NCBI GenBank assembly: GCA_902628835.1
Contig: CACOPD010000001.1
Coordinates: 62,001-126,000 of the forward strand
From: an uncultured Alphaproteobacteria bacterium
Lineage (GTDB): Bacteria; Pseudomonadota; Alphaproteobacteria; HIMB59; GCA-002718135
Direction: 5' to 3'
Length of the DNA stretch: 64,000 nt
This document shows, one piece after another, positions 20,232 to 38,346 of this stretch; within the stretch, counting starts at the first letter, position 1; the number at the start of each line of letters is the position of its first letter. The translations under genes and the position numbers were made by a program. The notes beneath the pieces are model-generated. The model made no database searches, was not told the origin of the DNA, and worked only from the letters and a program-made list of their open reading frames with translations.

Positions 20232-20235
20232 CTTA

Positions 20236-20263
20236 AAAAAAGTGCTGAAATCAGCACTTTTTT
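20236..20263. terminator. Terminator-like hairpin directly before lpxC
   Basis: Inverted repeat GTGCTGA-AA-TCAGCAC flanked by an A-run on one side and a T-run on the other, so it can fold on either strand. In the ftsZ-to-lpxC direction it is a GC-rich stem followed by seven U, ending three bases before the lpxC ATG. It is the clearest intrinsic terminator in the window. It probably ends or attenuates transcripts coming from ftsZ and may control lpxC. Confidence 0.8.
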
Positions 20264-20332
20264 AATATATTTTTTTGGCGATCTTAACAACTAACCTAAT
20301 ATTTCAAAATATTGCAAATAATGCTCTATTTA

Positions 20333-21967: not shown

Positions 21968-21997
21968 TGTAATCTCCGCCGTTTTAAATAGTTTTTA

Positions 21998-22018
21998 ACG
22001 ATTTATCTTCGAAATCGT
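21998..22018. repeat. Inverted repeat in the ftsA-ftsZ spacer
   Basis: ACGATTT and AAATCGT arms of seven bases separated by seven bases, about 30 bp before the ftsZ start. It could be an operator or a leader hairpin. No known binding consensus is matched with confidence. Confidence 0.45.
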
Positions 22019-22028
22019 CAATATATTT

Positions 22029-22042
22029 TACTATATATAGTA
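22029..22042. repeat. AT-only palindrome after ftsA
   Basis: The 14-bp perfect palindrome TACTATATATAGTA starts within the spacer near the ftsA stop. Perfect symmetry is less surprising in such AT-rich DNA; a role as a regulator site or part of an ftsZ promoter is possible only. Confidence 0.35.
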
Positions 22043-22046
22043 TAAT

Positions 22047-23267
22047 CTAAATATACTGATCCAGCCAAGAAAAAAAGCTTGAAATTCCTCGTTTTTTTGA
22101 AGATTTAGACTGATTTGCCAAAAAATTAATTTTGAACACATCTTGGCTATACAATATTGATCCAATAACATCGCAAAAATTTGGTTTTTTGAAGTTATTC
22201 TCCAAATTTAATTGATCTAATGGATTAGATACTCTTACACCACTCGCAAAAATTGTTTCAACATACTTTGCAATATTATCCATCATTGCCCCACCACCGG
22301 TTAGAACTACATTGGTTAATTTTTTATTTCTTAAATTATTATCTCTTATTTTTTGCCATATCATCTCTAAAGTTTCTTCAACTCGTGGTCTAATAATAGC
22401 GTTTAAGCTTGATCTAGTTATTTGCTTAAATGTATTTTTATCACCTGAAACAATTGGAATTTCTATTATTTCATGATCGTCGTTGGGCGATGAAACTAAA
22501 GAGCCATATAAAGTTTTTAATCTTTCAGCACTGGAAATATTAGTTGATAAACCTCTTGCTATATCTAATGTAATATTATTACTACCAACACCTATTGCGT
22601 CTCCATACACAAATTTATTATTTTCAAATACTGATATAGAGGATGTTGAATGGCCTAAATCAATACAAATAGTTCCAAGTTCTTTTTCATCTTTTGTTAG
22701 TGATGATAAAGAGGAAGATAATGGAGAAGGAATATAATTATCAATGTTAAGTTTCAATTTTTTAATAACACTCGAAATATTATCTGAATATTTTTTTTGT
22801 ATATTTATTTTATAAAAATTAATTTTGATATTATCTGAATAATTTCCTATTGGTGCATTAAAATATAAGTTATTGTCAATATCATATGAGGTTATATTAT
22901 TAAAAACTTCGAATTTTTCATCTTGATTATTAAAATATTCTGATTGATTAATAATTTTTTTTAAATGTAATTCAGAAATTCTCTCATTTTTTAATTCTAT
23001 TTCTGAGTTGTAGTAATGAGAATTAGAATTCAATAAGGATAAATTTAGATTAATAGAGTTTAATTTGGTTTGAGATTGTTTTTCAGCCTCGTTAACTAAA
23101 GATTTTATTTGATCATGTAAATTTTCAAAATTTAAAATAATATTTTTTTTAATATTATTACTAGGAACACTAACGATAGATAGGATATTAATATTTTCGG
23201 CGTTGTTATAATCAGCAATTACACATGATATTTTTGAATTACCAATATCTAGACCAGCTTTAATCAT
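22047..23267 (-). CDS. ftsA: Cell division protein FtsA (actin-like)
   Basis: Actin-family ATPase that tethers FtsZ filaments to the membrane and activates septal synthesis. The 406 residues contain the phosphate-1 motif GLDIGNSKISCVI (about residues 5-17), the SHS2/1C domain, phosphate-2 TICIDLGHSTSSI and adenosine motif VVLTGGGAMMDNI. The C-terminal GISSFFSWLDQYI looks like the amphipathic membrane-targeting helix. The start overlaps ftsQ by eight bases. Confidence 0.96.
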   Translation of the reverse strand: MIKAGLDIGNSKISCVIADYNNAENINILSIVSVPSNNIKKNIILNFENLHDQIKSLVNEAEKQSQTKLNSINLNLSLLNSNSHYYNSEIELKNERISELHLKKIINQSEYFNNQDEKFEVFNNITSYDIDNNLYFNAPIGNYSDNIKINFYKINIQKKYSDNISSVIKKLKLNIDNYIPSPLSSSLSSLTKDEKELGTICIDLGHSTSSISVFENNKFVYGDAIGVGSNNITLDIARGLSTNISSAERLKTLYGSLVSSPNDDHEIIEIPIVSGDKNTFKQITRSSLNAIIRPRVEETLEMIWQKIRDNNLRNKKLTNVVLTGGGAMMDNIAKYVETIFASGVRVSNPLDQLNLENNFKKPNFCDVIGSILYSQDVFKINFLANQSKSSKKRGISSFFSWLDQYI

Positions 23268-24033
23268 TTAAATTAATCAAGATTGTTTTTTTAGCATCTC
23301 TTAAATCATAGGTTTTTACATTATTAGTTTCCGTTTTGCTAAGTTTATTTTGTATCATAATAAAATTTTGAATAGATTTATTTGGATCTTCTTCTGAAAG
23401 CATTAATTTGACATCGTTATATAAATTTATGTTCCATCTTCTTTTATTGACAAATTCCAAACTCTCAATTTCATATTTTTTTTCAAAATCATTATTTTTT
23501 AAAATATTAATTATTGAATTAGCTTTTAAGTTTGAAGAATTTCCCTTAAAAATTATTAATGAATTATCAAAGAAATCTGTAATGTAAATTTGATCTATAA
23601 TTTTTCCATTTTCATCAAAAAGAAAGTATTTCTCATTAAAAAAATAAATTCCTATTGGTTTATATTCTTCAATCCTAATAAATAGAGTGTTTTTATAATT
23701 TGTATTTAAATATATTTCTTTAACCCAATTATTTTCTTTTATTGAATCATTAATTTGTTCCAATGGTAACAAAAAGATTGAAGACTCCATATATTTTTGT
23801 ACTTTGTTTTCTATAAATTTAGATTCAATTTTCTCTAAGCCTGAAATATTCAATGTTGTAAGTTGATATTGAAAGTTTTCTGAAAAACTTTGAATTATAT
23901 TTTTAGAAATCTCAAATAAATTATTTTTATGAAAATATAATAAAAAAGAAAAAATAATTAAAAATAAGAAAATACAAAAATAAATGAATGATCTGAAATT
24001 TAAAAAATATCTTCTTCTATTAATATTTTTCAT
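23260..24033 (-). CDS. ftsQ: Cell division protein FtsQ
   Basis: Divisome protein of the FtsQLB module. The 257 residues show a short basic cytoplasmic tail, one membrane helix (about residues 12-28), then a POTRA domain (LTTLNISGLEKIESKFIE) and the FtsQ beta domain (WVKEIYLNTNYKNTLFIRIEEYKPIG, given by its key start at about residue 98). Low overall conservation is normal; position between ddl and ftsA settles the call. Confidence 0.93.
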   Translation of the reverse strand: MKNINRRRYFLNFRSFIYFCIFLFLIIFSFLLYFHKNNLFEISKNIIQSFSENFQYQLTTLNISGLEKIESKFIENKVQKYMESSIFLLPLEQINDSIKENNWVKEIYLNTNYKNTLFIRIEEYKPIGIYFFNEKYFLFDENGKIIDQIYITDFFDNSLIIFKGNSSNLKANSIINILKNNDFEKKYEIESLEFVNKRRWNINLYNDVKLMLSEEDPNKSIQNFIMIQNKLSKTETNNVKTYDLRDAKKTILINLND

Positions 24034-24034
24034 A

Positions 24035-24985
24035 CTAATAATTCAAATTTTTGATCAAAATAAAAATAATTTCTGAAAAAGATAAACCTTTATAATTAGC
24101 TTGTTCGGGTAACAGAGATATAGGAGTAAGTCCAGGCTGAGTATTTGTTTCTAAAAAGAAAATTTTATTTTTTTTTGTATCAAAAATAAAATCAGTTCTT
24201 GCAAGTGAATTACAACCTAAGAGTTTATGAGCTTTAGTAGCAAAATTAAGACATTTAGCATAATTTATTTTATTTAACTTAGCTGGCAAAATATGTTTAG
24301 CGTAACCTTTGGAATATTTAGCTTTATAATCAAAGAAATTATTTTTTGATTTTATCTCTGTAACAGCAAGTGCATGAATTTTTTTATCCAATTTAATAGT
24401 TGAAACTGTAAGCTCCCTTCCAGATATATACTCTTCTATTAAAATTTCTTTGTGATTTGTTAGTTTTCTCTTAAATTCTTTTAAATTAGAAATTAGAATA
24501 TCAAATTCTTTTTGATTTTTAATTATTTTTATACCAAAACTTGAACCACTTCTATTAGGCTTAATAACAAATTTTTTTAACTTACTTTTAATAGTAATTA
24601 ACTTCTTCTCATTTAAATCATTTATATTTAAAAGATAATATTTTGGAGACATTAATTTATTTTTAATAATTTGTTTCTTAGATGCAGATTTATTAAAACA
24701 TAGATTAGATGATTTAATATTAGAATGAGAAAAAGGAATTTTATTTTTTTTTAAAATTTTTTGAATTTGTCCATCTTCACCAAAAGGTCCATGTAAAGCA
24801 TTGATACAAATAAAATTTTTATAATTAATTATTTTTTTATGAAAGTTTTTTGGATTAACTCTTAATGTCTTAAACTTTAATTTATTTTGATTAAGAATTT
24901 TTTGAATTTCTCTAGATGTTAATAAAGATACATCATGCTCTTCATTATTACCACCTTCTAAAATTAAAATTTTTTTATTACTCAC
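24035..24985 (-). CDS. ddl: D-alanine--D-alanine ligase
   Basis: ATP-grasp enzyme making the D-Ala-D-Ala dipeptide for peptidoglycan. The 316 residues contain EGGNNEEHDVSLLTSREI, the HGPFGEDG segment, the ATP-grasp VIKPNRSGSSFG and the metal-binding FLETNTQPGLTP. Lies between murB (8-bp overlap) and ftsQ (1-bp gap), as in the classical dcw order. Confidence 0.96.
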   Translation of the reverse strand: MSNKKILILEGGNNEEHDVSLLTSREIQKILNQNKLKFKTLRVNPKNFHKKIINYKNFICINALHGPFGEDGQIQKILKKNKIPFSHSNIKSSNLCFNKSASKKQIIKNKLMSPKYYLLNINDLNEKKLITIKSKLKKFVIKPNRSGSSFGIKIIKNQKEFDILISNLKEFKRKLTNHKEILIEEYISGRELTVSTIKLDKKIHALAVTEIKSKNNFFDYKAKYSKGYAKHILPAKLNKINYAKCLNFATKAHKLLGCNSLARTDFIFDTKKNKIFFLETNTQPGLTPISLLPEQANYKGLSFSEIIFILIKNLNY

Positions 24986-25871
24986 CTATTATTTTTACCT
25001 CCCATTCCAATTTTACATTGAATTTAGCATATACTTTCTCAACAATACTTTTACCTAGATTTTCTATATCAGTTGCTGAAGCACTTCCCCTATTAATTAA
25101 AAAATTTGCATGCTTATCACTCACATATGCATCTCCAAAATTGTTACCTTTACATCCTGCTTCCTCAATTAGTTTTGCCGCATAAAGATTTTCAGGATTT
25201 TTAAAAGTACTACCAGAAGTTTTATTTTTAATTGGTTGAGATTCTAAACGTTTATTCTTTATTTCATTAATCTTATCTTTAATTAAATTTTGATCTCCAT
25301 AATTAAAATTAAATATAGCTTTTGTAACTATATCTGTATTATTTATTTTTGAAGATCGATATTTTAGATTTAGTTTATCTTTTGTAATTATTTTTCTTTG
25401 ACCAAAATTATCACATATTTCTATACTATTTATAACATCTACAGTTTCCGAACCATAACAGCCAGCATTCATTTTAACTGCTCCACCTATTGATCCTGGG
25501 ATACCACTATAAAATTCAAAACCCTGTATATTTTGTCTCAATGCATAATTTGATAAATTAATATCTAAAATACTAGCACCAACTTCAAGTTTGTTATCAT
25601 TAATATTAATAGTATTAAAACCTTTACCTAATTTTATAAGAGTTCCACTATAACCATTATCTCTTATTAAAAGATTTGAACCTGAACCAATAATGTAAAA
25701 ATTTTCATTATTTATTTCATTTAGTATAATTTCTAACTCTAAATTATCTTCAACTATAGCAAAAATTTTTGCATTACCTCCAGTTCTGAACCAAGTATGT
25801 TTTGCAGCATTATAATCCAAGTAAATTTTACTTTTGAGTTTATCAGCTAGTTCTAGAATTTTTTTAGACAT
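24978..25871 (-). CDS. murB: UDP-N-acetylenolpyruvylglucosamine reductase
   Basis: FAD- and NADPH-dependent reduction producing UDP-MurNAc. The 297-residue protein has the FAD-binding HTWFRTGGNA and YIIGSGSNLLI, GSIGGAVKMNAGCYG, and the catalytic SGSTFKNP, where the serine protonates the product. This is the short type II form. The start overlaps the murC stop by one base. Confidence 0.96.
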   Translation of the reverse strand: MSKKILELADKLKSKIYLDYNAAKHTWFRTGGNAKIFAIVEDNLELEIILNEINNENFYIIGSGSNLLIRDNGYSGTLIKLGKGFNTININDNKLEVGASILDINLSNYALRQNIQGFEFYSGIPGSIGGAVKMNAGCYGSETVDVINSIEICDNFGQRKIITKDKLNLKYRSSKINNTDIVTKAIFNFNYGDQNLIKDKINEIKNKRLESQPIKNKTSGSTFKNPENLYAAKLIEEAGCKGNNFGDAYVSDKHANFLINRGSASATDIENLGKSIVEKVYAKFNVKLEWEVKIIGE

Positions 25872-27241
25872 TAGCTATTTAAATAATTTTTTGCAATATT
25901 TGATATTGAGCCCGCACCCATAAAAACAATGGTATTTTGATTGATTGTATAAGGCTTTATTAATTTATTTAAATCACCTATATTTTTTAAATATATGGTA
26001 TTTTTATTTTTTTTTAATATTTTAGAAAATAAATCTTTTGAAGTTGCGCCTTTGATAATCTTTTCTCCAGCTGAATACGTATCTAATAAAAATAAATAAT
26101 CACACTTAGATAAAACTTTTATAAACTCTTTAATAAGTATTTTAGTTCTAGTATATCTGTGTGGTTGAAAAACAACTATTACTTTATTTTTTAAACTTTT
26201 AGCTGCGCTTAATGTAGCTGCAATTTCTGTTGGATGATGTGCATAATCATCATACACAAAGGACTTATTTTTTTTTCCAATAAATGAGAACCTTCTTTTT
26301 ACACCTACATAATTAATCAACGCGTTATTAATATCTTTATTTTTAATTCCATTCAGTTTGGCTGCAACAATACTTGCTGTTGCATTTAAAATATTGTGAC
26401 TGCCGATTGCATTTATTGTAAATTTATAATTAGAAGAATGAGTAATTTTATTTTTAATTTTTAATTTAAAGGATGTTTTTAGTTTGTTTTGTATAATATC
26501 AAAGATTAATACGTCTGCCTTTTTATTTTTTATTGAATAAGTTAAAATATTTCTAGTTTTTATTTTGTTAATTAATAGTTTTAGATTCTTATCATCGTAA
26601 CACATTATTGTAGTTCCATAAAACGGAAGAAGATTTATAAATTTTTCAAAGGCATTAATTAAATTTTTCTTTGATTTATAAAAATCCATGTGTTCAATAT
26701 CTAAATTAGTAATTATTGATATTTGATGTGGGAGTTTTAAAAAGCTGCCATCACTTTCGTCAGCTTCAACAATCATCCACTCCCCTTTTCCATAGCGATT
26801 ATTGTTAGAAAAAGAATTTATAATACCACCATTAACAATAGTAGGATCTAAACCTGCTTCATTAAAAATATTTCCTACCAAACTAGTAGTAGTAGTTTTT
26901 CCGTGAGATCCAGCTATGGCAATAGATTTTTTATTTTTCATTAATTCTGCAAGCATATCAGCTCGAGAAAGAACAGGGATTTTTTTGATATATGCCTCTT
27001 TTATTTCAGGATTATTTTTTTTAATAGCTGATGAATAAACAATGGCATGAGCATTTTTAATATTTTTTTTATTATGTCCTAAAAAAAATTTTATACCTTT
27101 TTTCTTTAATCTTTTTGTATTATCGTTTATTGATATATCACTACCCTGGATCGAATATCCTTTATCTAACATTAATTCTGCAATACCAGACATCCCTATT
27201 CCTGAAATACCTATAAAATGAATTTTAGTATTAATTTTCAT
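25871..27241 (-). CDS. murC: UDP-N-acetylmuramate--L-alanine ligase
   Basis: Mur ligase adding L-Ala to UDP-MurNAc. The 456 residues start with the Rossmann segment HFIGISGIGMSGIAELM, followed by the ATP-binding AGSHGKTTTTSLVG (about residues 111-124), EADESDGSFL, and YDDYAHHPTEI in the C-terminal half, the standard Mur ligase order. Overlaps murG by 11 bp. Confidence 0.97.
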   Translation of the reverse strand: MKINTKIHFIGISGIGMSGIAELMLDKGYSIQGSDISINDNTKRLKKKGIKFFLGHNKKNIKNAHAIVYSSAIKKNNPEIKEAYIKKIPVLSRADMLAELMKNKKSIAIAGSHGKTTTTSLVGNIFNEAGLDPTIVNGGIINSFSNNNRYGKGEWMIVEADESDGSFLKLPHQISIITNLDIEHMDFYKSKKNLINAFEKFINLLPFYGTTIMCYDDKNLKLLINKIKTRNILTYSIKNKKADVLIFDIIQNKLKTSFKLKIKNKITHSSNYKFTINAIGSHNILNATASIVAAKLNGIKNKDINNALINYVGVKRRFSFIGKKNKSFVYDDYAHHPTEIAATLSAAKSLKNKVIVVFQPHRYTRTKILIKEFIKVLSKCDYLFLLDTYSAGEKIIKGATSKDLFSKILKKNKNTIYLKNIGDLNKLIKPYTINQNTIVFMGAGSISNIAKNYLNS

Positions 27242-28316
27242 TTAGTATTAATTTATAAATTAAAGTGTTACAGTTTTTAACTTTAATCATATCAAATTTT
27301 TTATTCATTGATTCTAATTTTTTTGGATTACTATATGTTTCATAAATATATTTTTTTGCTTTGTCTAAATCATCATTATTTTGATCAAAAATTATGGCTA
27401 AGTCATGTTTAGCTAATATTTCAGCATTAAAAAATTGATGTTTATCTTTTGAAGAAGGTAAAGGAATTAATATCGAGGGAAGTTTAAAGTGAATTAAATC
27501 AACAATTGTTCCTGCTCCAGCTCTGCATATTGCTAAATTAGCATTAGCTAGTATTTCATCTACATTAATAAAAAAATCTTTCAAAATTATTGGTGATTTA
27601 ATATTTTGTAATTCTGCTTCATATTTTTTTATCAAATGTTTAGAACACTGAAATATAAATTTAGCTTTTATAATTTTTTCGTCATCTATAATTTTAATTA
27701 GATTTGTTGCAAAATTTGATACAAATTCTGATCCTTGACTGCCGCCAGAAATAAAAATTGTAAAGTTACTCTCAGAATTTTTATTGCTTATATTATTATT
27801 TTTTTGAAAATTTTTTTCTGGAGAACCAACTACAAATATTTTATCTTTAAACTTTGAATTGATTTTAGATTTAATATCAAAATTTAAAAATAATTTATTT
27901 GAAAATTTCAAAAAAAATTTATTCGTTCTTCCTATTATTGAATTTTGTTCATGTATATAAAGTTTAACTTTATAAATTGGTTTAAATAACATACATGATA
28001 ACATTGGAGAAAACGAAGCATAACTTCCAAAGGAAATAGAATGGGATGGTTTTAATAAAAATATAATAATGAATGATTGAATTAATCCTAATAAAATTTG
28101 AAATATGCCAAAGATTTTAAATATTAGGTTTCCATTCAAATTTGACGAGCTAATTATATAAATTTTTCCATTATAATTTTCAAAATATTTATAACCTCTT
28201 TTGTCAGTTATAATTGAGCAATTTATATTTTTAACGGACAAATAATTGGCAAAATTTTTTGCTGGTATAACATGTCCCCCTGTTCCTCCTGTAATTAGTA
28301 AAAAATTTTCTTTCAT
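27231..28316 (-). CDS. murG: UDP-GlcNAc:lipid I GlcNAc-transferase
   Basis: GT-B glycosyltransferase on the inner face of the inner membrane that converts lipid I to lipid II. The 361 residues include the glycine-rich N-terminal loop ITGGTGGHVIPA (about residues 8-19), FISGGSQGSEFV at the second domain and ICRAGAGTIVDLIHFKLPSILIP, in which the donor UDP-GlcNAc binds. Overlaps ftsW by four bases. Confidence 0.96.
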   Translation of the reverse strand: MKENFLLITGGTGGHVIPAKNFANYLSVKNINCSIITDKRGYKYFENYNGKIYIISSSNLNGNLIFKIFGIFQILLGLIQSFIIIFLLKPSHSISFGSYASFSPMLSCMLFKPIYKVKLYIHEQNSIIGRTNKFFLKFSNKLFLNFDIKSKINSKFKDKIFVVGSPEKNFQKNNNISNKNSESNFTIFISGGSQGSEFVSNFATNLIKIIDDEKIIKAKFIFQCSKHLIKKYEAELQNIKSPIILKDFFINVDEILANANLAICRAGAGTIVDLIHFKLPSILIPLPSSKDKHQFFNAEILAKHDLAIIFDQNNDDLDKAKKYIYETYSNPKKLESMNKKFDMIKVKNCNTLIYKLILNEN

Positions 28317-29374
28317 AATTCTTCATTTTTTTTGTTTGTAAGAGATAATAAAAAACCAAATAAAATTGCTATTGATATCATGGAAGAACCTCCATAACTT
28401 ACAAATGGCAGTGTCATACCCTTTGTTGGTATAAGGCCAAGCGAGCTAAAGATATTAATTAAGCATTGTAATCCAAATGAGCAAATTAAACCGCTAATTG
28501 CTATAATTTTATATGGATCTTCAAGCTGTAGAACTTTTAATAAGCTTCTTATTATAATAGATAGAATTATAAAAATAATTATTAAACAAAAAATAAATCC
28601 TAATTCTTCTCCAGCAACAGCAAAAATAAAATCAGTGTTAGCATCAGGAATTTTTTCTTTTAAAATACCTTGCCCTGGACCCTTTCCAAGTAGCCCGCCA
28701 TTTTTGAAAGCTTGAATACTTAAATCTATTTGGTATGTATCAGTCCCACCTAATCCACCAAGAAATGAATTAATTCTTGATTGAACATGATCAAAAATAA
28801 AATAAGAAAAAATTGAAATTCCTAATATAAATAAAAATGCAACTATAACTAAAAAAATTGATAAACCAGCAACGAATAACTGGCAAAAAAAAGTTGCTGA
28901 CAGTAAAACTGTCATTCCCAAATCTGGCTGCATAAGTATTAAAGACAAAAGCAAGAAGAAAAAAACAAACAGTAAAGGTAAATAAAATTTTTTATCTTCT
29001 ATAGATTTACTTATACACCATGCAGTCAATATAACAAAAATAGGCTTAATTATCTCTGAAGGTTGAAGTGTAAAGTTAAATATTTGAAACCATCTCTTAG
29101 CGCCTTTAACTTCATAATCTAAAAAAAGTATTAGCAGTATTATTATTAATAAAATAATAAATGAAAATAATGAAATTCTTCTTATATTTTTACTATCTAA
29201 GTCTGATAACGCAATAAGTAAGAAAACTGAAAAAAGAAAAAAAATAGAGTGTCTATTTATGGATAAATTTTCATCCATGGAAAATGAAAGTATTAATCCC
29301 GTAAAACCCAATGAAAATATTAATATAATGTTAATTCTATCAATTGAATTCCACCAATTCTTTAAATATTCCAT
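28313..29374 (-). CDS. ftsW: Septal peptidoglycan glycosyltransferase FtsW (SEDS family)
   Basis: Polymerises lipid II at the septum together with FtsI. The 353 residues form about ten membrane helices. SEDS hallmarks are seen: LQPSEIIKP (conserved near the catalytic pocket), MQPDLGMTV, LLGKGPGQG, and the C-terminal IPTKGMTLPFVSYGGSSM. It is FtsW rather than RodA because it sits in the dcw cluster between murD and murG. Confidence 0.95.
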   Translation of the reverse strand: MEYLKNWWNSIDRINIILIFSLGFTGLILSFSMDENLSINRHSIFFLFSVFLLIALSDLDSKNIRRISLFSFIILLIIILLILFLDYEVKGAKRWFQIFNFTLQPSEIIKPIFVILTAWCISKSIEDKKFYLPLLFVFFFLLLSLILMQPDLGMTVLLSATFFCQLFVAGLSIFLVIVAFLFILGISIFSYFIFDHVQSRINSFLGGLGGTDTYQIDLSIQAFKNGGLLGKGPGQGILKEKIPDANTDFIFAVAGEELGFIFCLIIIFIILSIIIRSLLKVLQLEDPYKIIAISGLICSFGLQCLINIFSSLGLIPTKGMTLPFVSYGGSSMISIAILFGFLLSLTNKKNEEL

Positions 29375-29376
29375 GA

Positions 29377-30693
29377 TTAATTTATATAATTTTTAATTAA
29401 TTTATTAAAATGTATGCCTCTTTCTTCAAAATTTTTGTATTGATCATAAGAGGCACATGCAGGAGCGAACAATATAGTTGATTGATTTGAATTTTTTTTA
29501 ATATCCTTGAAGGTTTCTTTGATAACTGATTTTAAATTTGCCAATTTTTTAACAACTAATTCTTTTTTTAATTTTTTTTCAATGAAATTTCCTGATTTTC
29601 CGTAAGTATATACACAGCTAATTTTATTTTTATATTTTAGAAGAATTTCAAAATTTTTTTCTTTAGCTATGCCTCCTAAGATTAGGTAAATATTATTATA
29701 ATTTACAACTGAATTTATTGTTGAATTTAAATTAGTAGATTTACTATTATTTACTATTTTTAATTTATTATTTGTAAAAATTGTAGATGATCTAAATGGC
29801 AGACCCTTAAATGTTTTAATAACCTTAAGAAAATTAGATTCTGGAATTTTTAATATTTTGCTACATATGTATGCTATTAAAATATTTTGAATATTAAAAT
29901 TACCTTCTAAATCTTTTGAGATATTTTTTATAAATAATTTTTTGTTTTTTTTGAAGTAATTATCTAGAATATAATCATTGTTAGCGAAACAATCAGCTGA
30001 TTTATCGACTAAAGAAAAACTAATTTTATTTTTAATTTTTTTTTGATTAAATATCTTTCTTGAATAAATATCATCAATTGATAACAAATTAATTCCATTT
30101 TTAGTAATAATATTTTTCTTCTGACTAACATAATCACTAATACCTTTGTACCTATCTAAATGATCACCAGATAAATTTGTTATTACTGATATTCTACTAT
30201 CAAGTGACTTAACTGTTTCTAATTGAAAAGAACTTAATTCGATAACATGAACTTTATATTTTTTTTTAAGAAGAAAAGCATTGCATAATGATTCTCCAAT
30301 ATTGCCCCCAACAAATGTTTTAATATTATTTTTTTTTAAAATGTCTCCTATTAATTTGGTTGTTGTTGATTTCCCATTTGTGCCAGTAATAGCTACAATC
30401 TTTTGATTTGTTAAATTCGAAATATATAAATTTAAATCTCTATTTACTTTTTTAGATATATTTTTTCTTTTAAATTTTTTTTGTCTTAAAGATATTCCTG
30501 GGCTAACAAAAATTTTTTTAAAATCATTCAAATTATCTTTTTTTATATTAAAAAAATAATCTTTATTGTAATTTTTTTTTATAGCCTTTCTTACTATTGG
30601 ATTATCATCCCACATCTTAAATTTTATTTTTTTATTTTCAAAATAATTTACTATAGAAAGTCCTGATTTTTGAATTCCATAAATTAAATACAT
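29377..30693 (-). CDS. murD: UDP-N-acetylmuramoyl-L-alanine--D-glutamate ligase
   Basis: Mur ligase adding D-Glu. From the ATG at 30693 (MYLIYGIQKSG) the protein has 438 residues, the usual length, with the ATP loop AITGTNGKSTTTKLIGD, SSFQLETV and ITNLSGDHLDRY. An in-frame extension upstream lies inside mraY and has no homology; the chosen ATG overlaps the mraY stop (TAATG), a junction type common here. Confidence 0.94.
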   Translation of the reverse strand: MYLIYGIQKSGLSIVNYFENKKIKFKMWDDNPIVRKAIKKNYNKDYFFNIKKDNLNDFKKIFVSPGISLRQKKFKRKNISKKVNRDLNLYISNLTNQKIVAITGTNGKSTTTKLIGDILKKNNIKTFVGGNIGESLCNAFLLKKKYKVHVIELSSFQLETVKSLDSRISVITNLSGDHLDRYKGISDYVSQKKNIITKNGINLLSIDDIYSRKIFNQKKIKNKISFSLVDKSADCFANNDYILDNYFKKNKKLFIKNISKDLEGNFNIQNILIAYICSKILKIPESNFLKVIKTFKGLPFRSSTIFTNNKLKIVNNSKSTNLNSTINSVVNYNNIYLILGGIAKEKNFEILLKYKNKISCVYTYGKSGNFIEKKLKKELVVKKLANLKSVIKETFKDIKKNSNQSTILFAPACASYDQYKNFEERGIHFNKLIKNYIN

Positions 30694-31781
30694 TATCTTA
30701 TTCTTAAAGTTGCAAGACCTATCAAAGCTAATACAATAGTAATTATCCAAAAACGAATAACTATTGTTGACTCAGGCCATCCCTTTTTTTCAAAATGATG
30801 ATGCAGTGGAGCCATTAAAAAAACCCTTTTTCCTGTCATTTTAAAAATGAATACTTGGATTACTACAGACAAGGTTTCTAGAACAAATAAACCTCCTATT
30901 ATTGCAAGAAGAATTTCATGTTTGCATATTATTGCTACTGAGCCTAAAGAGCCGCCTAATGCTAAAGATCCTGTATCACCCATAAAAACTTTAGCAGGTG
31001 GTGCGTTAAACCAAAGAAAACCTAAAGCGGCTCCAATTAAAGAACCACAAAAAACTGCTAATTCACCGGTTCCAGGAATATATTGGATAAGTAAATAATT
31101 AGAAAAAACTATATTACCTGAAACATACGCTATGAAAGCAAAAGACATAGCAACTATCATTACAGGGACAATTGCTAAACCATCAAGTCCATCAGTTAGA
31201 TTTACTGCATTAGCTGATCCAATAATTATAAATATAGAAATTAGAAAATAAAATATTCCAAAATCTATAATTAAATTTTTAAAGAAAGGAAATGTCATAG
31301 ATTTGCTTATACTTGGATCTAAATTGATAAGAATTAAATATGTAATGAAAAAAGAAAAAATGATTTGAAATATAATTCTTATTTTTGATGAAATACCCTT
31401 ACTTGTATTTGATTTGATTTTACTGTAGTCATCTGCAAAACCAATAGATCCAAAAATTAAAATAGTTAAAAGTAAAATCCATATAAAAATATTTTGTAAA
31501 TCAGCCCAAATAATTGTTGAAACAAAAACACTTAGAATAATCAACAGGCCACCCATTGTAGGAGTACCTTTTTTTGCAATTATATGTGACTCTGGACCAT
31601 CATCTCTTATTGGCTGGCCAGTTGGCTGAACATTTGATAATTTGTTAATAACATAATTTCCAAATATGAGAGAAAAAAATAATCCAGTAAGAATAGAGGC
31701 GCCAGTTCTAAATGTAATATAACTAAAAATATTTAGAAAACTAAATAAAGATTGGTATTCAAAGGCCAAATATTTAATCAA
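30693..31781 (-). CDS. mraY: Phospho-N-acetylmuramoyl-pentapeptide transferase
   Basis: Integral membrane enzyme that makes lipid I from UDP-MurNAc-pentapeptide and undecaprenyl phosphate. The 362 residues form about ten helices and carry the cytoplasmic-loop signatures GTPTMGGL, FADDYSKI, NLTDGLDGLA, FMGDTGSLALG and APLHHHFEKKGWPE. Overlaps murF by four bases. Confidence 0.97.
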   Translation of the reverse strand: MIKYLAFEYQSLFSFLNIFSYITFRTGASILTGLFFSLIFGNYVINKLSNVQPTGQPIRDDGPESHIIAKKGTPTMGGLLIILSVFVSTIIWADLQNIFIWILLLTILIFGSIGFADDYSKIKSNTSKGISSKIRIIFQIIFSFFITYLILINLDPSISKSMTFPFFKNLIIDFGIFYFLISIFIIIGSANAVNLTDGLDGLAIVPVMIVAMSFAFIAYVSGNIVFSNYLLIQYIPGTGELAVFCGSLIGAALGFLWFNAPPAKVFMGDTGSLALGGSLGSVAIICKHEILLAIIGGLFVLETLSVVIQVFIFKMTGKRVFLMAPLHHHFEKKGWPESTIVIRFWIITIVLALIGLATLRIR

Positions 31782-33142
31782 ATCGATACCTGTTTTAATA
31801 ATATTTTTGCAAACTTATTTATTTTTGTCGAATTAGAACATTTAATTAAAATAATGTCATTATTATGCACTTTCTCTTTTAAAAATTGCATAATTTTATT
31901 TGTATTTTTAAAATGGATAAATTCATTATTTGGATTTAAATTTTTTACAGATAATTCAAAGAATTCGCCACATAAAATTACAAATTTAAAAATAGTGGTA
32001 TCTAATTTTTGTAGTAATTTATAATGAATTTTATAAGAATTATTTCCTAATTCATTCATTGTCCCTAGAATTATTATTTTTTTATTATTTTTTACTTTGA
32101 TATTTTCTAAGTTTTTTATGCTTTGCAACATTGTATCAGGATTAGCATTATAAGATTCATCAATAATATTTATTTTTTTTTTATTTAAAGAAATTTTATG
32201 GACTAATCCCCTACCTTCCACTGGTTTTAAAAACTTGAAACTATTTAGGACTGATTTAATGTTCAGAGAATTTTCATTATAAAATGCAAGACAAAATAAT
32301 AAGTTATTTAATCTATGCATTACTATTGAATCAGTAACAATGTTAACCTTTTTTTTATTAATTGATAAAGTTACTTTATGCAATTTTTTATAGGGAGATA
32401 TTTTTTTAATAAAATATTTTTTTGAAGAATTATCAATACGAATTATTTTAAGATTTTTTTCTTTATTTGCTTTTGTGATTAAAATATTTTCAGATTTAGA
32501 AGAAACATTGAGATATAGCTTTTTCCTATTATTATTATATTTAGAAATAAATATATCAGCTTTTTCTCTGGCAATATTATTTTTAGTTTGAAAATTTTCA
32601 AGGTGAGTAGATTGTATATTTGTAATAAATACCTCTGATGGTTTGACTAAATTACTAAGAAATTTTATCTCACCAAAATTATTTGTTCCAATTTCAAAAA
32701 TTGCATAATTTGATTTTAAATTTAAATTTAGTAAAGAAATTAATACACCTAACTGATTATTATAACTTTTCTTTGAGTAAGAAATGGTATGATCTTTTTT
32801 TAAGAAAAATGCTAAAGTTTCTTTTAAAGTAGTTTTACCAGCACTGCCAGTAATGCCTATTACTTTACCTTTGTATAAATCTCGTTTCGTTTTTGCTATT
32901 TTTGAAAGATATTTATAAATATTATTTACATATAAAATTTTTTTATTTTTTTTGAAATTTTTATTATCAGTTACACAAAACTTTGCACCTTTATCTATTG
33001 CTTCATTTAAAAACTTGTTTCCATGAAACCTTTTACCTTTTAAAGCAAGAAATATATCACCACTTTTAATATCTTTACTTGATATTTGAATTTTATCTTT
33101 TCTAGATATTATATATTTCTCTAATTGATTTAATTCGATCAT
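31778..33142 (-). CDS. murF: UDP-MurNAc-tripeptide--D-alanyl-D-alanine ligase
   Basis: Adds the D-Ala-D-Ala dipeptide made by Ddl. The 454 residues include the N-terminal tripeptide-binding region (SSKDIKSGDIFLALKG), the ATP loop GITGSAGKTTLKETLA (about residues 95-110) and the DESYNANPDTM segment typical of MurF. Overlaps murE by four bases. Confidence 0.95.
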   Translation of the reverse strand: MIELNQLEKYIISRKDKIQISSKDIKSGDIFLALKGKRFHGNKFLNEAIDKGAKFCVTDNKNFKKNKKILYVNNIYKYLSKIAKTKRDLYKGKVIGITGSAGKTTLKETLAFFLKKDHTISYSKKSYNNQLGVLISLLNLNLKSNYAIFEIGTNNFGEIKFLSNLVKPSEVFITNIQSTHLENFQTKNNIAREKADIFISKYNNNRKKLYLNVSSKSENILITKANKEKNLKIIRIDNSSKKYFIKKISPYKKLHKVTLSINKKKVNIVTDSIVMHRLNNLLFCLAFYNENSLNIKSVLNSFKFLKPVEGRGLVHKISLNKKKINIIDESYNANPDTMLQSIKNLENIKVKNNKKIIILGTMNELGNNSYKIHYKLLQKLDTTIFKFVILCGEFFELSVKNLNPNNEFIHFKNTNKIMQFLKEKVHNNDIILIKCSNSTKINKFAKILLKQVSI

Positions 33143-34560
33143 TTATTTAATAATTGTTTAACAACTGTAAAATCATCAAACTTAATTGTTTTATTTTTTA
33201 AAACTTGAAATTTTTCGTGCCCTTTACCTGCTACTATTAAAATTTCATTCATTTTTAATTCTTTAATAGCTAATTTAATTGCTTTTCTTCTATCAGATAC
33301 TTCCATAGCTCTAGAACAATAATTTAGAATATTTTTCCTTATTTTAGATGGATTTTCATTTCTAGGATTGTCATCCGTTATATAAATTTTATCAGCATAT
33401 TTATTTGCAATTAATGCCATGGATTTCCGCTTACTTTTATCTCTATCACCGCCACAACCAAATAAAATTGATGGTTTCATTTTTTTGATTTTATAAGCAA
33501 GTAGAATTTTTTTCAAAGCATCTGGTGTATGTGCATAATCAATAATAATTTTTGATTTTTTTTTCTTATACTCAATTGTTTGCAAACGACCTGATGGATT
33601 TGTAACTTTTGATAATACTCTTATAATTTTACTTTGACTAATATTAAGTGCTAAGCAACAAGTAATTGCACATTCTAAATTTTCTAATTCTATATTTGTT
33701 TTAAGTTTTAGATTTTCTAGTTTATGTTTTATATTGTTAATATTCAAATATACAATATCATTGATTTTTATTAATTTTATATTTTTATTTCCGAAATATT
33801 TAAATTTTACGTTTTTTTTTATCAATGTTTTTTTTAATTCAGATAAGATGTTTAATCTTGAATTAATTATAGCAAATCCAGAATTTACTAAATGATTAGA
33901 GAAAAGTTTAATTTTAGATTTTTTATAATTTGAGAATGTTTTATGGTAATCAAGATGATCTTTTGAAATGTTTGTAATAGCTGCAATATTTATAGGATAA
34001 TTTCTTAACCTGTTTTGTTCTAGAGCGTGACTTGAGGCTTCAAAAATGAAAATATTTTTTTCTTTTTTATTCGAAGATCCATATCTAAATAATTCTTCAT
34101 AGGCAGGTGTTGTTAAATTTATATCATTTATTTTTTTTCCGTTTACAAAATGTCCTAAAGTACCAACCACTGTATTATTATATTTTAGTGAATTAAGAAT
34201 TTTTGAAATATACCAAACAACTGATGTCTTTCCATTGGTACCTGTAACTGCTAGTGTTTTAAAGGGAAGATTACTATGAAGCTTAGTTAATAAATAATAT
34301 ATCTCAAAATTAATATTAGATACAATAAATTGAGGAATTTTTAAATTTTTAATATATTTATTTGAAATTATAGCAGGAGTTTTATTCTTAAGCACTTCAT
34401 CTAAATAAATCTTTTTTATCTTTTTATTTTTGTCATAAACAAACAAGGTTTTGTTATTAGTAAATTTTGAGTTAGAGGTAATTGCAGAGAAATATTTATT
34501 TTTATTAAAGTTGTAAGTTTTATTTACTCTTATAACTTTTGATAAATTAGACAGTAGCAT
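33139..34560 (-). CDS. murE: UDP-MurNAc-L-Ala-D-Glu--meso-diaminopimelate ligase
   Basis: Adds the third amino acid of the stem peptide. The 473 residues show AVTGTNGKTSVVWY for ATP, VVGTLGHFVNG, and the specificity motif in TDDNPRNENP. D-N-P-R indicates meso-diaminopimelate rather than lysine, as expected in a Gram-negative cell. Overlaps ftsI by 14 bp. Confidence 0.95.
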   Translation of the reverse strand: MLLSNLSKVIRVNKTYNFNKNKYFSAITSNSKFTNNKTLFVYDKNKKIKKIYLDEVLKNKTPAIISNKYIKNLKIPQFIVSNINFEIYYLLTKLHSNLPFKTLAVTGTNGKTSVVWYISKILNSLKYNNTVVGTLGHFVNGKKINDINLTTPAYEELFRYGSSNKKEKNIFIFEASSHALEQNRLRNYPINIAAITNISKDHLDYHKTFSNYKKSKIKLFSNHLVNSGFAIINSRLNILSELKKTLIKKNVKFKYFGNKNIKLIKINDIVYLNINNIKHKLENLKLKTNIELENLECAITCCLALNISQSKIIRVLSKVTNPSGRLQTIEYKKKKSKIIIDYAHTPDALKKILLAYKIKKMKPSILFGCGGDRDKSKRKSMALIANKYADKIYITDDNPRNENPSKIRKNILNYCSRAMEVSDRRKAIKLAIKELKMNEILIVAGKGHEKFQVLKNKTIKFDDFTVVKQLLNK

Positions 34561-36196
34561 TTAATTTTCTATATAAAAAATTTGTGTCTACTTTTAGAAG
34601 ATCATCATTTTTATCTTTTGAAATATTAAAGAGGCTTATAATATTAATAATAATATCTTTTACTAAGGGTGCATTTACTCTTGCTCCAGTCATTCTTTGT
34701 TTAGTGCCTGTTTCCTTTTTTGGATACTCAATAGCAGTGTAAACTACATATTTTGGATTATTTGTTGGGAATATTCCAATAAAGGACGTTAAGTTTCTAT
34801 CCTTATAATATCCACCATTTGGATTTAGTAACTCTGATGTTCCAGTTTTACCTCCTACAGAATAACCATCTACTTTTACTCTAGGACCAGTGTATTCGGT
34901 CTTGAGAACAACAGAATTTAATAAATTGATAAAGAATTTAGATGATTCTTTATTATTAAAAATTTGATTTTGTTCAAATTGTTTGTTTAATTGAAGTGTA
35001 GGAAAAACCTCATTCCCATTATTCGCTAATGAAGCATAAGCTTTAACTAAATGAAGAGGTGTAATTGCAAATCCATGACCAAATCCTATCGTTGCTGTTT
35101 CTAGCTTACCCCAATTATATTTATTTCCTAAAGGAGCTGAGCTTTCTTTATTTTCTATATTTATTTTTTTATTGAAACCTATTTTTTCAAAAAATTCTAT
35201 TTGGTTTTTTTTTCCAATCAAAGTAGCAATCTGAGCTGTACCAATATTGGATGATTCAACAATTATTTTTTCAACATCATAAATACCATTATCTTTGTAT
35301 TTATCATGATCACTTATATTTAAATATTTTTTTGTAACATCAAAAGTCATTTGAGGATCTATAATATCTAAATCAAATCCAATAGTGGCAGTTATTGGTT
35401 TGAAAGTTGATCCCATTTCATAATTAGACTGAAAAACTCTATTAATTAAATTATTGTTATTATATGAGGATTTGTCCTCAGGATTATAATCAGGTAAGCT
35501 TACTGATGATAAGATTTGACCGTTAGTAATATCCATAACTATAGCTAAACCGGACTCAGCTTTATAATTATTTATGGTTTTTAAGAGATTTTCTCTAACC
35601 AACTGCTGTAAATTAGTGTCAATACTAATAATTATATCTTGTGATTTTGCGAGATCATTTTCAAAATACCTCTCGATTCCACTCTGACCAATTTGATCAA
35701 TATCTACATATCCAAGAATATGTGACAAAGTATTCTTATAGGGATATATTCTTTTAGACTCTTTATGAGCTTTGATATTTATTTCACCAAGATTAATTAT
35801 TTCTTGATATTCAACTGGAGATATATTTCTTTTTATCCAAATAAATTTACTTGTTGATAATAATTTTTTTTCTATTTTTTTTATATCTAAATCAAGGATT
35901 AATCCCAATTTGCTAGCAAGTTTTTTTTTATTTTTTATCTTATTAGGGTTAATTGATAAAGAGATACTTTCAATAGAGGTAGCAACTATATTTCCATTCC
36001 TATCATAAATACTGCCTCTAATATCTTTTTTTATATAATTAGTGTTATCATCAATAAGATCAGGAAAAAGCATAATTGACGAGATTCTATAAATAGAAAT
36101 AAAATAGACAAAAATAAAAATTGTAATTGAAAAAAAAACTCTTCTATGAAGTAATTTTAAAGAATCACTATCAAATAATTTTAGTTTACTTAACAT
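34547..36196 (-). CDS. ftsI: Penicillin-binding protein 3 (FtsI), septal transpeptidase
   Basis: Class B PBP that cross-links septal peptidoglycan with FtsW. The 549 residues comprise a membrane helix (about 21-38), the pedestal domain (RGSIYDRNGNIVA), and the transpeptidase with Ser263 in GSTFKPIT, the VESSNIGTA motif (about residues 313-321) and GGKTGTSE (about 448-455). The three boxes are intact. The dcw position and ftsL just upstream fix it as FtsI. Confidence 0.97.
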   Translation of the reverse strand: MLSKLKLFDSDSLKLLHRRVFFSITIFIFVYFISIYRISSIMLFPDLIDDNTNYIKKDIRGSIYDRNGNIVATSIESISLSINPNKIKNKKKLASKLGLILDLDIKKIEKKLLSTSKFIWIKRNISPVEYQEIINLGEINIKAHKESKRIYPYKNTLSHILGYVDIDQIGQSGIERYFENDLAKSQDIIISIDTNLQQLVRENLLKTINNYKAESGLAIVMDITNGQILSSVSLPDYNPEDKSSYNNNNLINRVFQSNYEMGSTFKPITATIGFDLDIIDPQMTFDVTKKYLNISDHDKYKDNGIYDVEKIIVESSNIGTAQIATLIGKKNQIEFFEKIGFNKKINIENKESSAPLGNKYNWGKLETATIGFGHGFAITPLHLVKAYASLANNGNEVFPTLQLNKQFEQNQIFNNKESSKFFINLLNSVVLKTEYTGPRVKVDGYSVGGKTGTSELLNPNGGYYKDRNLTSFIGIFPTNNPKYVVYTAIEYPKKETGTKQRMTGARVNAPLVKDIIINIISLFNISKDKNDDLLKVDTNFLYRKLNATV

Positions 36197-36199
36197 TAA

Positions 36200-36514
36200 T
36201 TAATTATTTGAACTAACAAGCTTAATATTTCTATCTTGATTTGAAAGTTCTTTCATTTTTACAATAAGAGGGACATTATTTTTTTGAGTTTCATTAAAAT
36301 ACAATTCATATAGTGTTTTTAAATATGAGCTATTTTGATGAGCAGCTAATTCTATCTTATTAATTTTTAAATTTTCTGAAATTTTAGATATTTTCATTTT
36401 CAAATTTTGATTATTTTTTTCGATTTCTCTTGTATTGTTGGCAATAAAAATCATTAAAAAAACTAGTATTAAATTAAGAATTAAAAAGAATATAATTGAT
36501 TTAGTATACTTCAT
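36200..36514 (-). CDS. ftsL: Cell division protein FtsL
   Basis: Small bitopic protein of 104 residues: N-terminal membrane helix (about 8-26) followed by a predicted periplasmic coiled coil (about 30-70). FtsL proteins share little sequence; the call rests on topology, size and the invariable place between rsmH and ftsI. Partners would be FtsQ and FtsB; ftsB is not in this window. Confidence 0.85.
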   Translation of the reverse strand: MKYTKSIIFFLILNLILVFLMIFIANNTREIEKNNQNLKMKISKISENLKINKIELAAHQNSSYLKTLYELYFNETQKNNVPLIVKMKELSNQDRNIKLVSSNN

Positions 36515-36516
36515 TA

Positions 36517-37455
36517 TTAAATTTTCTGAGCTACCCGAAGTTTTGCTGATCTAGATCTGGGATTTTCTAAAATCTCAGAAGCTGATGGCAATATTGGTTT
36601 TTTGGTGATTATTTTAAGTTGAGTTGCCAGTTTATCAGGTAACTCCGGGTAGTGGCGGGAGGAACGCCATCGTTTACCACTATTGTGGTTAAAAAAATCT
36701 TTCACAATTCTATCTTCTAGACTTTGGAAAGAAACTACTAAAATTAAACCATCCTTATTTAAAATTTTCAAAGTTTTTTCTAGACTCGTCTTTAGTTCAC
36801 TTAACTCATCGTTTACATAAATTCTAATTGCCTGAAATGTTTTTGTAGCTGGATGAATCTTGTTATTTAATTGTTTCTTTTTTGGTAAACATTTTTTAAT
36901 AATGTTTGATAATTCTATCGTATCACTTATAAATTTTATATTTCTGCTTTTTACTATTTCTTTTGCTATAACTCTTGAATAATGTTCTTCTCCATATTGA
37001 AAAATTATATTAGCTAAATTTTTTTCTTCATACTTATTAATAATATCATAAGCATTTTTATCTGAAGAACCCATTCGCATATCAAGTGGCCCAGATTTGT
37101 TGAATGAAAAACCTCTTTGTGCATTATCTATTTGATTTGAGCTTGTACCTATATCGAAAAGTATTATGTCAAATTTTTTATCTTTAAAGTTTGTATTATT
37201 TACTATTTCTTCAATTTTACTAAATTTATCATTTATTAAAGAAAAATTTGAAAATTTAGACTCTATTTCTTTTGCAAATATTTTTGAAATTGGATCCCTA
37301 TCTATTGCTAACAATTGATTTACATTAAATTTTTCAAGGATAGTTTTTGAATAGCCACCGCCACCAAAAGTTGCATCTATTACATTTATTGATTTTGTTA
37401 GAGGTAGAAAGGATAATATTTCATTAATCATTACTGACTTATGTAAATTTTCCAT
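36517..37455 (-). CDS. rsmH: 16S rRNA (cytosine-1402-N4)-methyltransferase
   Basis: SAM-dependent methylation of C1402 in the ribosomal P site (also called MraW). The 312 residues begin with HKSVMINEILSFL and the SAM-binding DATFGGGGYSKTIL (about residues 26-39), then DRDPISK, LFDIGTSSNQIDNAQRGFSF and the C-terminal SFQSLEDRIVKDFF. Second gene of the dcw cluster, one base after mraZ. Confidence 0.97.
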   Translation of the reverse strand: MENLHKSVMINEILSFLPLTKSINVIDATFGGGGYSKTILEKFNVNQLLAIDRDPISKIFAKEIESKFSNFSLINDKFSKIEEIVNNTNFKDKKFDIILFDIGTSSNQIDNAQRGFSFNKSGPLDMRMGSSDKNAYDIINKYEEKNLANIIFQYGEEHYSRVIAKEIVKSRNIKFISDTIELSNIIKKCLPKKKQLNNKIHPATKTFQAIRIYVNDELSELKTSLEKTLKILNKDGLILVVSFQSLEDRIVKDFFNHNSGKRWRSSRHYPELPDKLATQLKIITKKPILPSASEILENPRSRSAKLRVAQKI

Positions 37456-37456
37456 A

Positions 37457-37918
37457 TTATTTTTGTTGCGTTAACATCATTCGTAATGATTTTTTTTCTT
37501 TTAAAAGACGCCTTCTTGAGTCTTCAGTATTTTTTAGACCTTTATTTGGCTCCCAGATTTGAAAATAATGGCCTTGACCAAAAAAAGCAGCTTCAGTTTT
37601 AATGCCAGCGTATAATTTTAATTCTTCAGGAATTAAAAATCTTCCTTCTTTATCAATATTAGTTGTAATTATTTCTGAAAATATTGATGTTGAAAAATCA
37701 TCATAATCCTCAGAAAAAAAATCTAAATTATTAATTCTTTTTGCGATTTCTTCTAATCTGCCTATACCACAGCCCTCAATAGAAGGTGTTTTTATAGATT
37801 TGTATAAAATAATTTCATTTCTATTAGCTTTTGGAAGTACATTTCTAAAGCTAGAAGGCAGAGAAACTCTTCCCTTCTTATCTATTTTATTAATATACTT
37901 AGATACAAATAAATCCAT
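37457..37918 (-). CDS. mraZ: Transcriptional regulator MraZ
   Basis: Double AbrB-like DNA-binding protein that regulates its own dcw operon. The 153 residues contain both D-x-x-x-R motifs: DKKGRVSLPSSFR (about residues 14-26) and DKEGRFLIPEEL (about 91-102). First gene of the cluster, with a good promoter and four ATGGG repeats directly in front. Upstream of the ATG there is only about 14 bases of leader and no clear ribosome-binding site. Confidence 0.96.
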   Translation of the reverse strand: MDLFVSKYINKIDKKGRVSLPSSFRNVLPKANRNEIILYKSIKTPSIEGCGIGRLEEIAKRINNLDFFSEDYDDFSTSIFSEIITTNIDKEGRFLIPEELKLYAGIKTEAAFFGQGHYFQIWEPNKGLKNTEDSRRRLLKEKKSLRMMLTQQK

Positions 37919-37924
37919 TAAAAA

Positions 37925-37958
37925 TGGGTTATCATGGGATTATATGGGCGTCAATGGG
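37925..37958. promoter_or_regulatory. Probable MraZ operator: four ATGGG repeats at 10-bp period
   Basis: TGGG occurs at 37925, 37935, 37945 and 37955 on the plus strand, each preceded by A, at exactly one helical turn. MraZ is known to bind direct repeats of TGGGN with 5-bp spacers upstream of mraZ. The repeats span from inside the -35/-10 spacer to the start of the leader, so binding would block RNA polymerase. The repeats read CCCAT on the mraZ coding strand, so they point opposite to the gene. Confidence 0.8.
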
Positions 37959-37966
37959 TATATCAA
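37939..37966 (-). promoter_or_regulatory. Promoter of the dcw cluster (mraZ)
   Basis: TTGATA (37961-37966) and perfect TATAAT (37939-37944) separated by 16 bp, reading towards mraZ. Predicted start near 37932, about 14 bases before the ATG. The boxes are seen; activity is inferred. Confidence 0.75.
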
Positions 37967-38005
37967 TTAATTATAAATGTTCTTTGTATGTTCTATATAA
38001 ATATA

Positions 38006-38339
38006 GATGGTGCATAAGCCGGGTTCTGTAATTTAATAAAAAATCGATGATCATTAATCTAGAACAAATGTTGCCATTTGTTTCAAGCAGTCTACCCGAA
38101 TAACTCAGCTGGATCTGATTGCTATTCCTATTTGACCTTGCTCCAAAAAGGGTTTGCAATGCCTTTTTTGTTACCAAAAAAGCGGTAAGCTCTTACCCCA
38201 CCATTTCACCCTTACCTTTGCAGGCGGTATATTTTCTGTTGCACTTTCCCTAAGCTTTCACTTGCCAGGTGTTACCTGGTTTTTTTTCCAGTGGAGCCCG
38301 GACTTTCCTCTTGATTTCTCAAGCGATCATCGCACCATC
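38006..38339 (-). ncRNA. rnpB: RNase P RNA, type A
   Basis: Catalytic RNA of RNase P, which trims tRNA 5' leaders. On the minus strand the universal segment GAGGAAAGTCCGGGCTCC lies near the 5' end (about 38294-38311) and ACAGAACCCGGCTTAT near the 3' end, with GGTAAGGGTGAAATGG between. P1 is formed by GATGGTGC and GCACCATC, which fix the ends at 38339 and 38006. Length about 334 nt. A promoter precedes it at 38347-38374, partly inside the amidase gene. Confidence 0.95.
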
Positions 38340-38346
38340 AAATGGC

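Follow-up and report, generated by a model that had tools for sequence, protein, structure and literature searches.

Across a large part of the bacteria, the dcw cluster is headed by MraZ, a protein of poorly understood role whose operator has so far been characterised in only a few species. The E. coli MraZ box at Pmra consists of phased GTGGG/TGGG units with a 10-bp period directly upstream of mraZ and the dcw cluster, with TGGG reading in the direction of the gene and lying downstream of the -10 element; the DNA before mraZ of E. coli K-12 (L034) reads AGTGGGAAATTGTGGGGCAAAGTGGGAATAAGGGG in the gene sense. MraZ of Burkholderia cenocepacia shifts a fragment of the dcw promoter, PmraBc, which carries four 7-nt repeats with 3-nt spacing upstream of mraZ, downstream of the -10 element and overlapping the start site (PMC7761207). 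In Mollicutes, the MraZ-bound site is (AAAGTGKN3)3, likewise a set of direct repeats with a 10-bp period at the dcw promoter, although with other half-site letters and in wall-less organisms with a reduced cluster (PMC5282649). MraZ of E. coli and of M. genitalium represses dcw, and MraZ overexpression in M. gallisepticum was accompanied by more FtsZ (PMC8475190). Among Alphaproteobacteria, a CtrA motif at mraZ of S. meliloti (PMC3616915), an NtrX input at mraZ of R. sphaeroides (PMC7240162) and secondary start sites of mraZ in agrobacteria (PMC10469942) have been reported. In the gut metagenome, MraZ was described as a new SOS member, with a LexA site upstream of the mraZ homologue that is bound in vitro by B. 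subtilis LexA (PMC3998124). Here, we describe the DNA upstream of mraZ in a window, i.e., the whole analysed stretch of 64,000 nucleotides, from an uncultured alphaproteobacterium.

Phased CCCA repeats upstream of the dcw cluster

The first-pass annotation had placed 17 genes under the control of the operator candidate. The order of the ORFs and their translations confirmed this number of genes: mraZ, rsmH, ftsL, ftsI, murE, murF, mraY, murD, ftsW, murG, murC, murB, ddl, ftsQ, ftsA, ftsZ and lpxC, all on the - strand (Table 1). The first five, and the N-acetylmuramoyl-L-alanine amidase gene that lies beyond rnpB, were named by family search, the rest by sequence and order, and ftsL by position. 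The MraZ protein has both expected MraZ/AbrB-like halves, with the basic D-x-x-G-R motifs DKKGR and DKEGR and with PF02381 on the second half; residues D12, R16, D88, G91 and R92 were invariant in A1. A search of solved structures with the single MraZ protein gave no match; a profile search found MraZ entries including 9qlr, 9qlg and 9sx6, for which no paper was found.

Table 1. Features of the region upstream of mraZ and of the adjoining genes (positions in the window)
Feature	Position	Strand	Evidence or remark
dcw cluster, mraZ to lpxC, 17 genes	19359..37918	-	ORF order, translations, family search
mraZ, first dcw gene	37457..37918	-	NCBIfam MraZ 1e-43, below curated cut-offs; Pfam PF02381 over cut-off
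MraZ operator candidate, four CCCA in gene sense	37925..37958	-	phasing, congeners, class motif
R4	37925..37928	-	CCCA repeat
R3	37935..37938	-	CCCA repeat
R2	37945..37948	-	CCCA repeat
R1	37955..37958	-	CCCA repeat
Class-conserved -10 candidate TAACCC, overlaps R4	37926..37931	-	TGATAA in 34/35 congeners; TGnTAT in class profile
First-pass -10 candidate TATAAT, R2-R3 spacer	37939..37944	-	TATAAT in 20/35, TAnnnT in 34/35 congeners
Class-conserved -35 candidate TTGACG, R1-R2 spacer	37949..37954	-	35/35 congeners; TTGAC class-wide
First-pass -35 candidate TTGATA	37961..37966	-	11/12 pair with TATAAT; 1/35 distinct congeners
LexA-type (SOS) box candidate	37979..37993	-	gene sense GAACATACAAAGAAC; + strand GTTCTTTGTATGTTC; congeners, class survey
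rnpB, RNase P RNA class A, co-directional, upstream	37999..38342	-	Rfam RF00010, 304 bits

The four ATGGG repeats at an exact 10-bp period that had been noted in the first pass were confirmed in position: the + strand carries TGGG at R4, R3, R2 and R1, with an A directly 5' of each of the four copies. This strand is opposite to the gene, and the array reads TACCCATTGACGCCCATATAATCCCATGATAACCCATTTTTAATG in the mraZ sense. When the window was searched for four TGGG at a 10-bp period with up to 3 mismatches, the array was the sole site, with 0 mismatches, and a shuffled window gave a mean of 0.03 four-copy sites even at 3 mismatches. Throughout the genome of 1,476,895 bases, three exact phased TGGG copies were found only here, both matches being overlapping parts of the array. 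A chance repeat was ruled out by this uniqueness together with the shuffles.

The genus set comprised 39 mraZ upstream sequences, 35 of them distinct. The repeats, whose absence from close relatives would have counted against the operator according to the first-pass annotation, were present in 35 of 35 distinct congeners: no variation was seen in any of the four CCCA copies or in the R1-R2 spacer TTGACG, and the R3-R4 spacer was TGATAA in 34. The R2-R3 spacer was more variable (TATAAT in 20, TATATT in 9, and neither of these in 6). The mean modal-base fraction was 1.0 for the repeats and the first spacer, 0.995 for the third spacer and 0.90 for the second, as compared to the flanks, where the DNA has drifted (0.77 upstream and 0.64 just downstream).

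As expected of an MraZ box, which should hold at least three direct repeats of the TGGG/GTGG type with a 10-bp period at the mraZ/dcw promoter and be kept beside mraZ in relatives, the array has four perfect copies and stops 6 nt before the mraZ start. Since it adjoins mraZ, is unique in the genome, is invariant in the genus and is present class-wide (112 of 117 class loci; see below), there is, judged by sequence, a very high probability that this array is the operator through which MraZ acts on the dcw cluster, in agreement with its earlier designation as a strong operator candidate. It seems very improbable that MraZ plays no part here and that the repeats serve another protein or are kept simply as promoter sequence. 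Other regulators are indeed associated with alphaproteobacterial mraZ, namely NtrX (PMC7240162) and, by its motif, CtrA (PMC3616915), but the half-site and the 10-bp period match the characterised MraZ sites of E. coli and B. cenocepacia, and the motif lies beside mraZ in all 75 alphaproteobacterial families while being unique in this genome.

Repeat direction and the core promoter in Alphaproteobacteria

We surveyed the mraZ upstream DNA of 118 alphaproteobacterial loci and 64 loci from other Pseudomonadota. Four phased tetramers matching in at least 14 of 16 letters occurred as CCCA at 89 alphaproteobacterial loci and as TGGG at none, whereas the same scoring in the other Pseudomonadota gave 20 loci with TGGG and none with CCCA. 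The gamma-/beta-type genomes carried forward GTGGG repeats with a 10-bp unit, the reverse of the alphaproteobacterial direction. A register-locked motif, CCCA-TTGACn-CCCA-tnnnat-CCCA-TGnTAT-CCCA, was present in 112 of 117 alphaproteobacterial upstreams, as scored by a profile against the best shuffled score; shuffles were used as the control because the profile was built from the same loci. At least one locus in each of the 75 families scored above the shuffled controls. In the profile, the R1-R2 spacer TTGAC was moderately conserved (first T, 97%), the R3-R4 spacer TGnTAT was conserved at 86-98% per letter, and the middle spacer was mainly A/T-rich.

Reversed repeats that overlap the core promoter are the norm in Alphaproteobacteria. 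The first-pass annotation had pointed out both traits as departures from the usual description, and both are true of this locus, but neither is special to it, a peculiarity of this genome being ruled out by the class survey. In E. coli and B. cenocepacia, the repeats read in the gene direction 3' of the -10 element, whereas the array described here extends from -35 to -10 as CCCA; we regard direction and placement as particular to these known cases and not as defining the MraZ-box family. The half-site and the period thus appear to be those of the MraZ family, with orientation and place differing in Alphaproteobacteria.

Two family-level observations are added here. A sister family, f2 (L030-L033 and L198), has two or three CCCA repeats around TATAAT and no LexA box, and its operator has apparently decayed or been rewired. 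In family f23, presumably the Rhodobacter family, the motif sits 258-318 nt before mraZ, a position compatible with the mapped start of R. sphaeroides, 268 nt upstream of mraZ (PMC5089854).

As for the promoter, the pair TTGATA-16-TATAAT proposed in the first pass is present on the - strand (37966-37939) and scores 11/12 against the sigma-70 consensus. However, TTGATA was found in 1 of the 35 distinct congeners, with TTCATA in 17, and TTGACG is the hexamer conserved instead. The pair conserved in the genus would be TTGACG-17-TAACCC, with TGn directly before TAACCC, matching a class-wide TTGAC-17-TAT(CCC); TATCCC is found in most Alphaproteobacteria. Because both informative spacers sit at 17-bp promoter spacing, the class promoter is probably TTGACn-17-TATCCC, threaded throughout by the operator. 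This -10 element (TAACCC/TATCCC) is poor by E. coli rules, and TATAAT may still act as a -10.

It is possible, though the less probable reading, that MraZ binds the array while the promoter in use is TATAAT with a weak and variable -35, in which case TTGACG would owe its conservation solely to being a spacer within the MraZ site. This would fit the high consensus score, the retention of TAnnnT in 34 of 35 congeners, and the f2 loci L030-L032, which lack TTGAC, have TTTACA/T-17-TATAAT flanked by CCCA, and seem to use TATAAT in this way. On the other hand, TTGACG and TGATAA are better conserved in the genus than the TATAAT spacer, and the spacers conserved across the class are TTGAC and TGnTAT, not the middle one. 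Under either candidate pair, the array covers the core promoter and the mraZ leader is very short at most.

The class promoter gives a predicted transcription start on or beside the mraZ ATG. Since mraZ starts 6 nt past the array, we predict for it an mRNA with no leader or almost none. The same 6-nt distance between R4 and the start codon, without a Shine-Dalgarno sequence, was found in 29 of the 35 distinct congeners, suggesting that the dcw mRNA of this genus as a whole may be of this kind. One congener (L013) has a GTG start, which is awkward for a leaderless mRNA. In S. meliloti, also an alphaproteobacterium, 171 leaderless mRNAs have been reported (PMC3616915).

A LexA-type box beside the array

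The first-pass annotation was sound in its operator call, but it missed a conserved LexA-type box just upstream. Between rnpB and the array, five bases from the rnpB end and 20 bp upstream of R1, the DNA reads GAAC-ATACAAA-GAAC in the gene sense and ATGTTC-TTTGTA-TGTTC on the + strand. This matches, in spacing and in extended consensus, the alphaproteobacterial LexA box GTTC-N7-GTTC and its extended form (A/T)TGTTC-N6-TGTTC, given for Caulobacter as (T/A)TGTTC-N6-TGTTC (PMC12700426, PMC13384398). Of the 35 distinct congeners, 31 had exact GAAC-N7-GAAC. Across the class, the survey found 51 boxes upstream of the array in 33 of the 75 alphaproteobacterial families (e.g., at loci L145, L157, L167 and L195), as compared to about 1 expected from shuffling, and 41 of the 51 carried TGTTC-N6-TGTTC. 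The spacer of 7 was specific, since other spacers from 3 to 13 gave 0-5 boxes, and GAAC-N7-GAAC occurred in none of the 64 non-alphaproteobacterial mraZ upstreams. A chance origin was ruled out by these three results. Three loci carry GAACATAACAAGAAC, the reverse complement of GTTCttgttatGTTC, which is the box of two Caulobacter SOS genes (PMC12700426). The other 42 families showed no box within the stretch read.

A cognate LexA exists in the lineage, with the box at SOS genes. Matches to lexA were found in 31 of 36 congeners (30 of them strong). The same box form precedes lexA in congeners; this genome has it before recA, an S24-peptidase (umuD-like) gene and nrdA. The box before nrdA, the ribonucleotide reductase large-subunit gene, is GAACAAAATAAGAAC (L041:1501-1515; G000:C1:372340-372354) and suggests that nrdA may be under SOS control in this lineage. 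No lexA match was found in the assembly of this genome, which is 84% complete. Because the short plain pattern GAAC-N7-GAAC is not enriched genome-wide (19 matches versus 19 in the reversed control), our argument rests on its conservation at mraZ. On this basis, we regard binding of LexA to the box as likely, and the box as probably a second, DNA-damage-linked (SOS) input to dcw.

Many of the checked loci share the order amidase-rnpB-box-array-mraZ, and most have no gene between the box and mraZ. Service to a divergent gene is not the usual case, as rnpB is co-directional and adjacent in most of them; the exceptions are L299, with rnpB reversed, and L263 and L271, with another ORF in between. 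In 19 families, the box lies 131-138 bp from R1 and the intervening DNA is not conserved. When the DNA from box to array was aligned, the one element that stood out as conserved was a TTTTACT-like block beside the array. In many alphaproteobacterial loci this short block precedes R1 by about 9-14 bp; it is possibly an upstream promoter element. A phase test of the box-to-array distance gave R 0.46 at 10.5 bp, only a hint of helical phasing, with families that are non-independent and an array register that may slip by 10 bp. Because the box is about 135 bp away in other families, plain occlusion of the same promoter is ill-suited as its mode of action; it may run a separate upstream promoter, act from afar, or activate.

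A reading in which the box serves another nearby promoter or is a relic, and has no function as a LexA site of dcw, seems rather unlikely to us. Such a reading could draw on the lack of a detectable lexA in this genome's own assembly, the usual distance to the array, which is ill-suited to direct occlusion, the families without a box in the stretch read, and the equal counts of the plain pattern in the genome and its reversed control. Against it stand a frequency far above chance, the specificity of the spacer, the conservation in the genus, and the absence of any other gene start between the box and mraZ in most of the checked loci.

The gut meta-regulon likewise has a LexA site upstream of an mraZ homologue, but it concerns B. 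subtilis-type LexA and metagenome sites. Since the alphaproteobacterial box is a different motif, any link between the two would be separate. No report of LexA at alphaproteobacterial mraZ was found in the openly accessible literature searched; an earlier description of the operator feature or of the LexA box may exist in subscription literature.

Proposed control of the dcw cluster

From the sequence and by analogy, we consider it highly likely that MraZ represses its own promoter, and hence the 17-gene dcw cluster, by covering the promoter. We infer MraZ binding from the identity of the site, and repression from the work on E. coli and M. genitalium (PMC8475190). The four CCCA/TGGG half-sites, spaced by one helical turn and so facing the same side of the DNA, would be read by an MraZ oligomer. 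In the arrangement proposed for this genome and for Alphaproteobacteria in general, the half-sites are interleaved with the promoter, with R1 abutting the -35 element, R2 and R3 filling the spacer and R4 overlapping the -10 element, so that bound MraZ should directly block RNA polymerase. Being direct repeats that share a face of the helix, the half-sites could accept the oligomer lying either way, and the reversed orientation would change where it sits relative to RNA polymerase. The LexA-type box just upstream would then supply its probable second input, linked to DNA damage, to the cluster.

MraZ could also bind the array and mainly activate, or tune in both directions, as might be argued from the increased FtsZ on MraZ overexpression in M. 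gallisepticum (PMC8475190). This seems improbable to us, as the array spans the region from -35 to -10, so that an oligomer bound there should keep RNA polymerase out, and as MraZ of E. coli and M. genitalium represses (PMC8475190, PMC7761207). Beyond repression by MraZ, we tentatively put forward, as a possibility somewhat short of probable, an old two-regulator control of dcw in Alphaproteobacteria, in which a reversed, promoter-woven MraZ operator is combined with a LexA box and DNA damage directly tunes transcription of the whole cluster. In many families the box would be held at close to 13 helical turns upstream, and in this genus at about 2, and LexA and MraZ would perhaps interact functionally.

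A whole class that uses the same half-site reversed and inside the promoter leads to a sharply defined prediction of the mode of repression, and makes it possible to compare the logic of the operator between classes. The LexA box beside the operator hints at an additional input from DNA damage to the division genes. The one link between mraZ and the SOS response suggested so far comes from gut metagenome sites and B. subtilis LexA; if the box is a true LexA site, dcw would be a direct SOS target in many Alphaproteobacteria, and damage-linked control of division in the class, including abundant marine bacteria, would have to be rethought.
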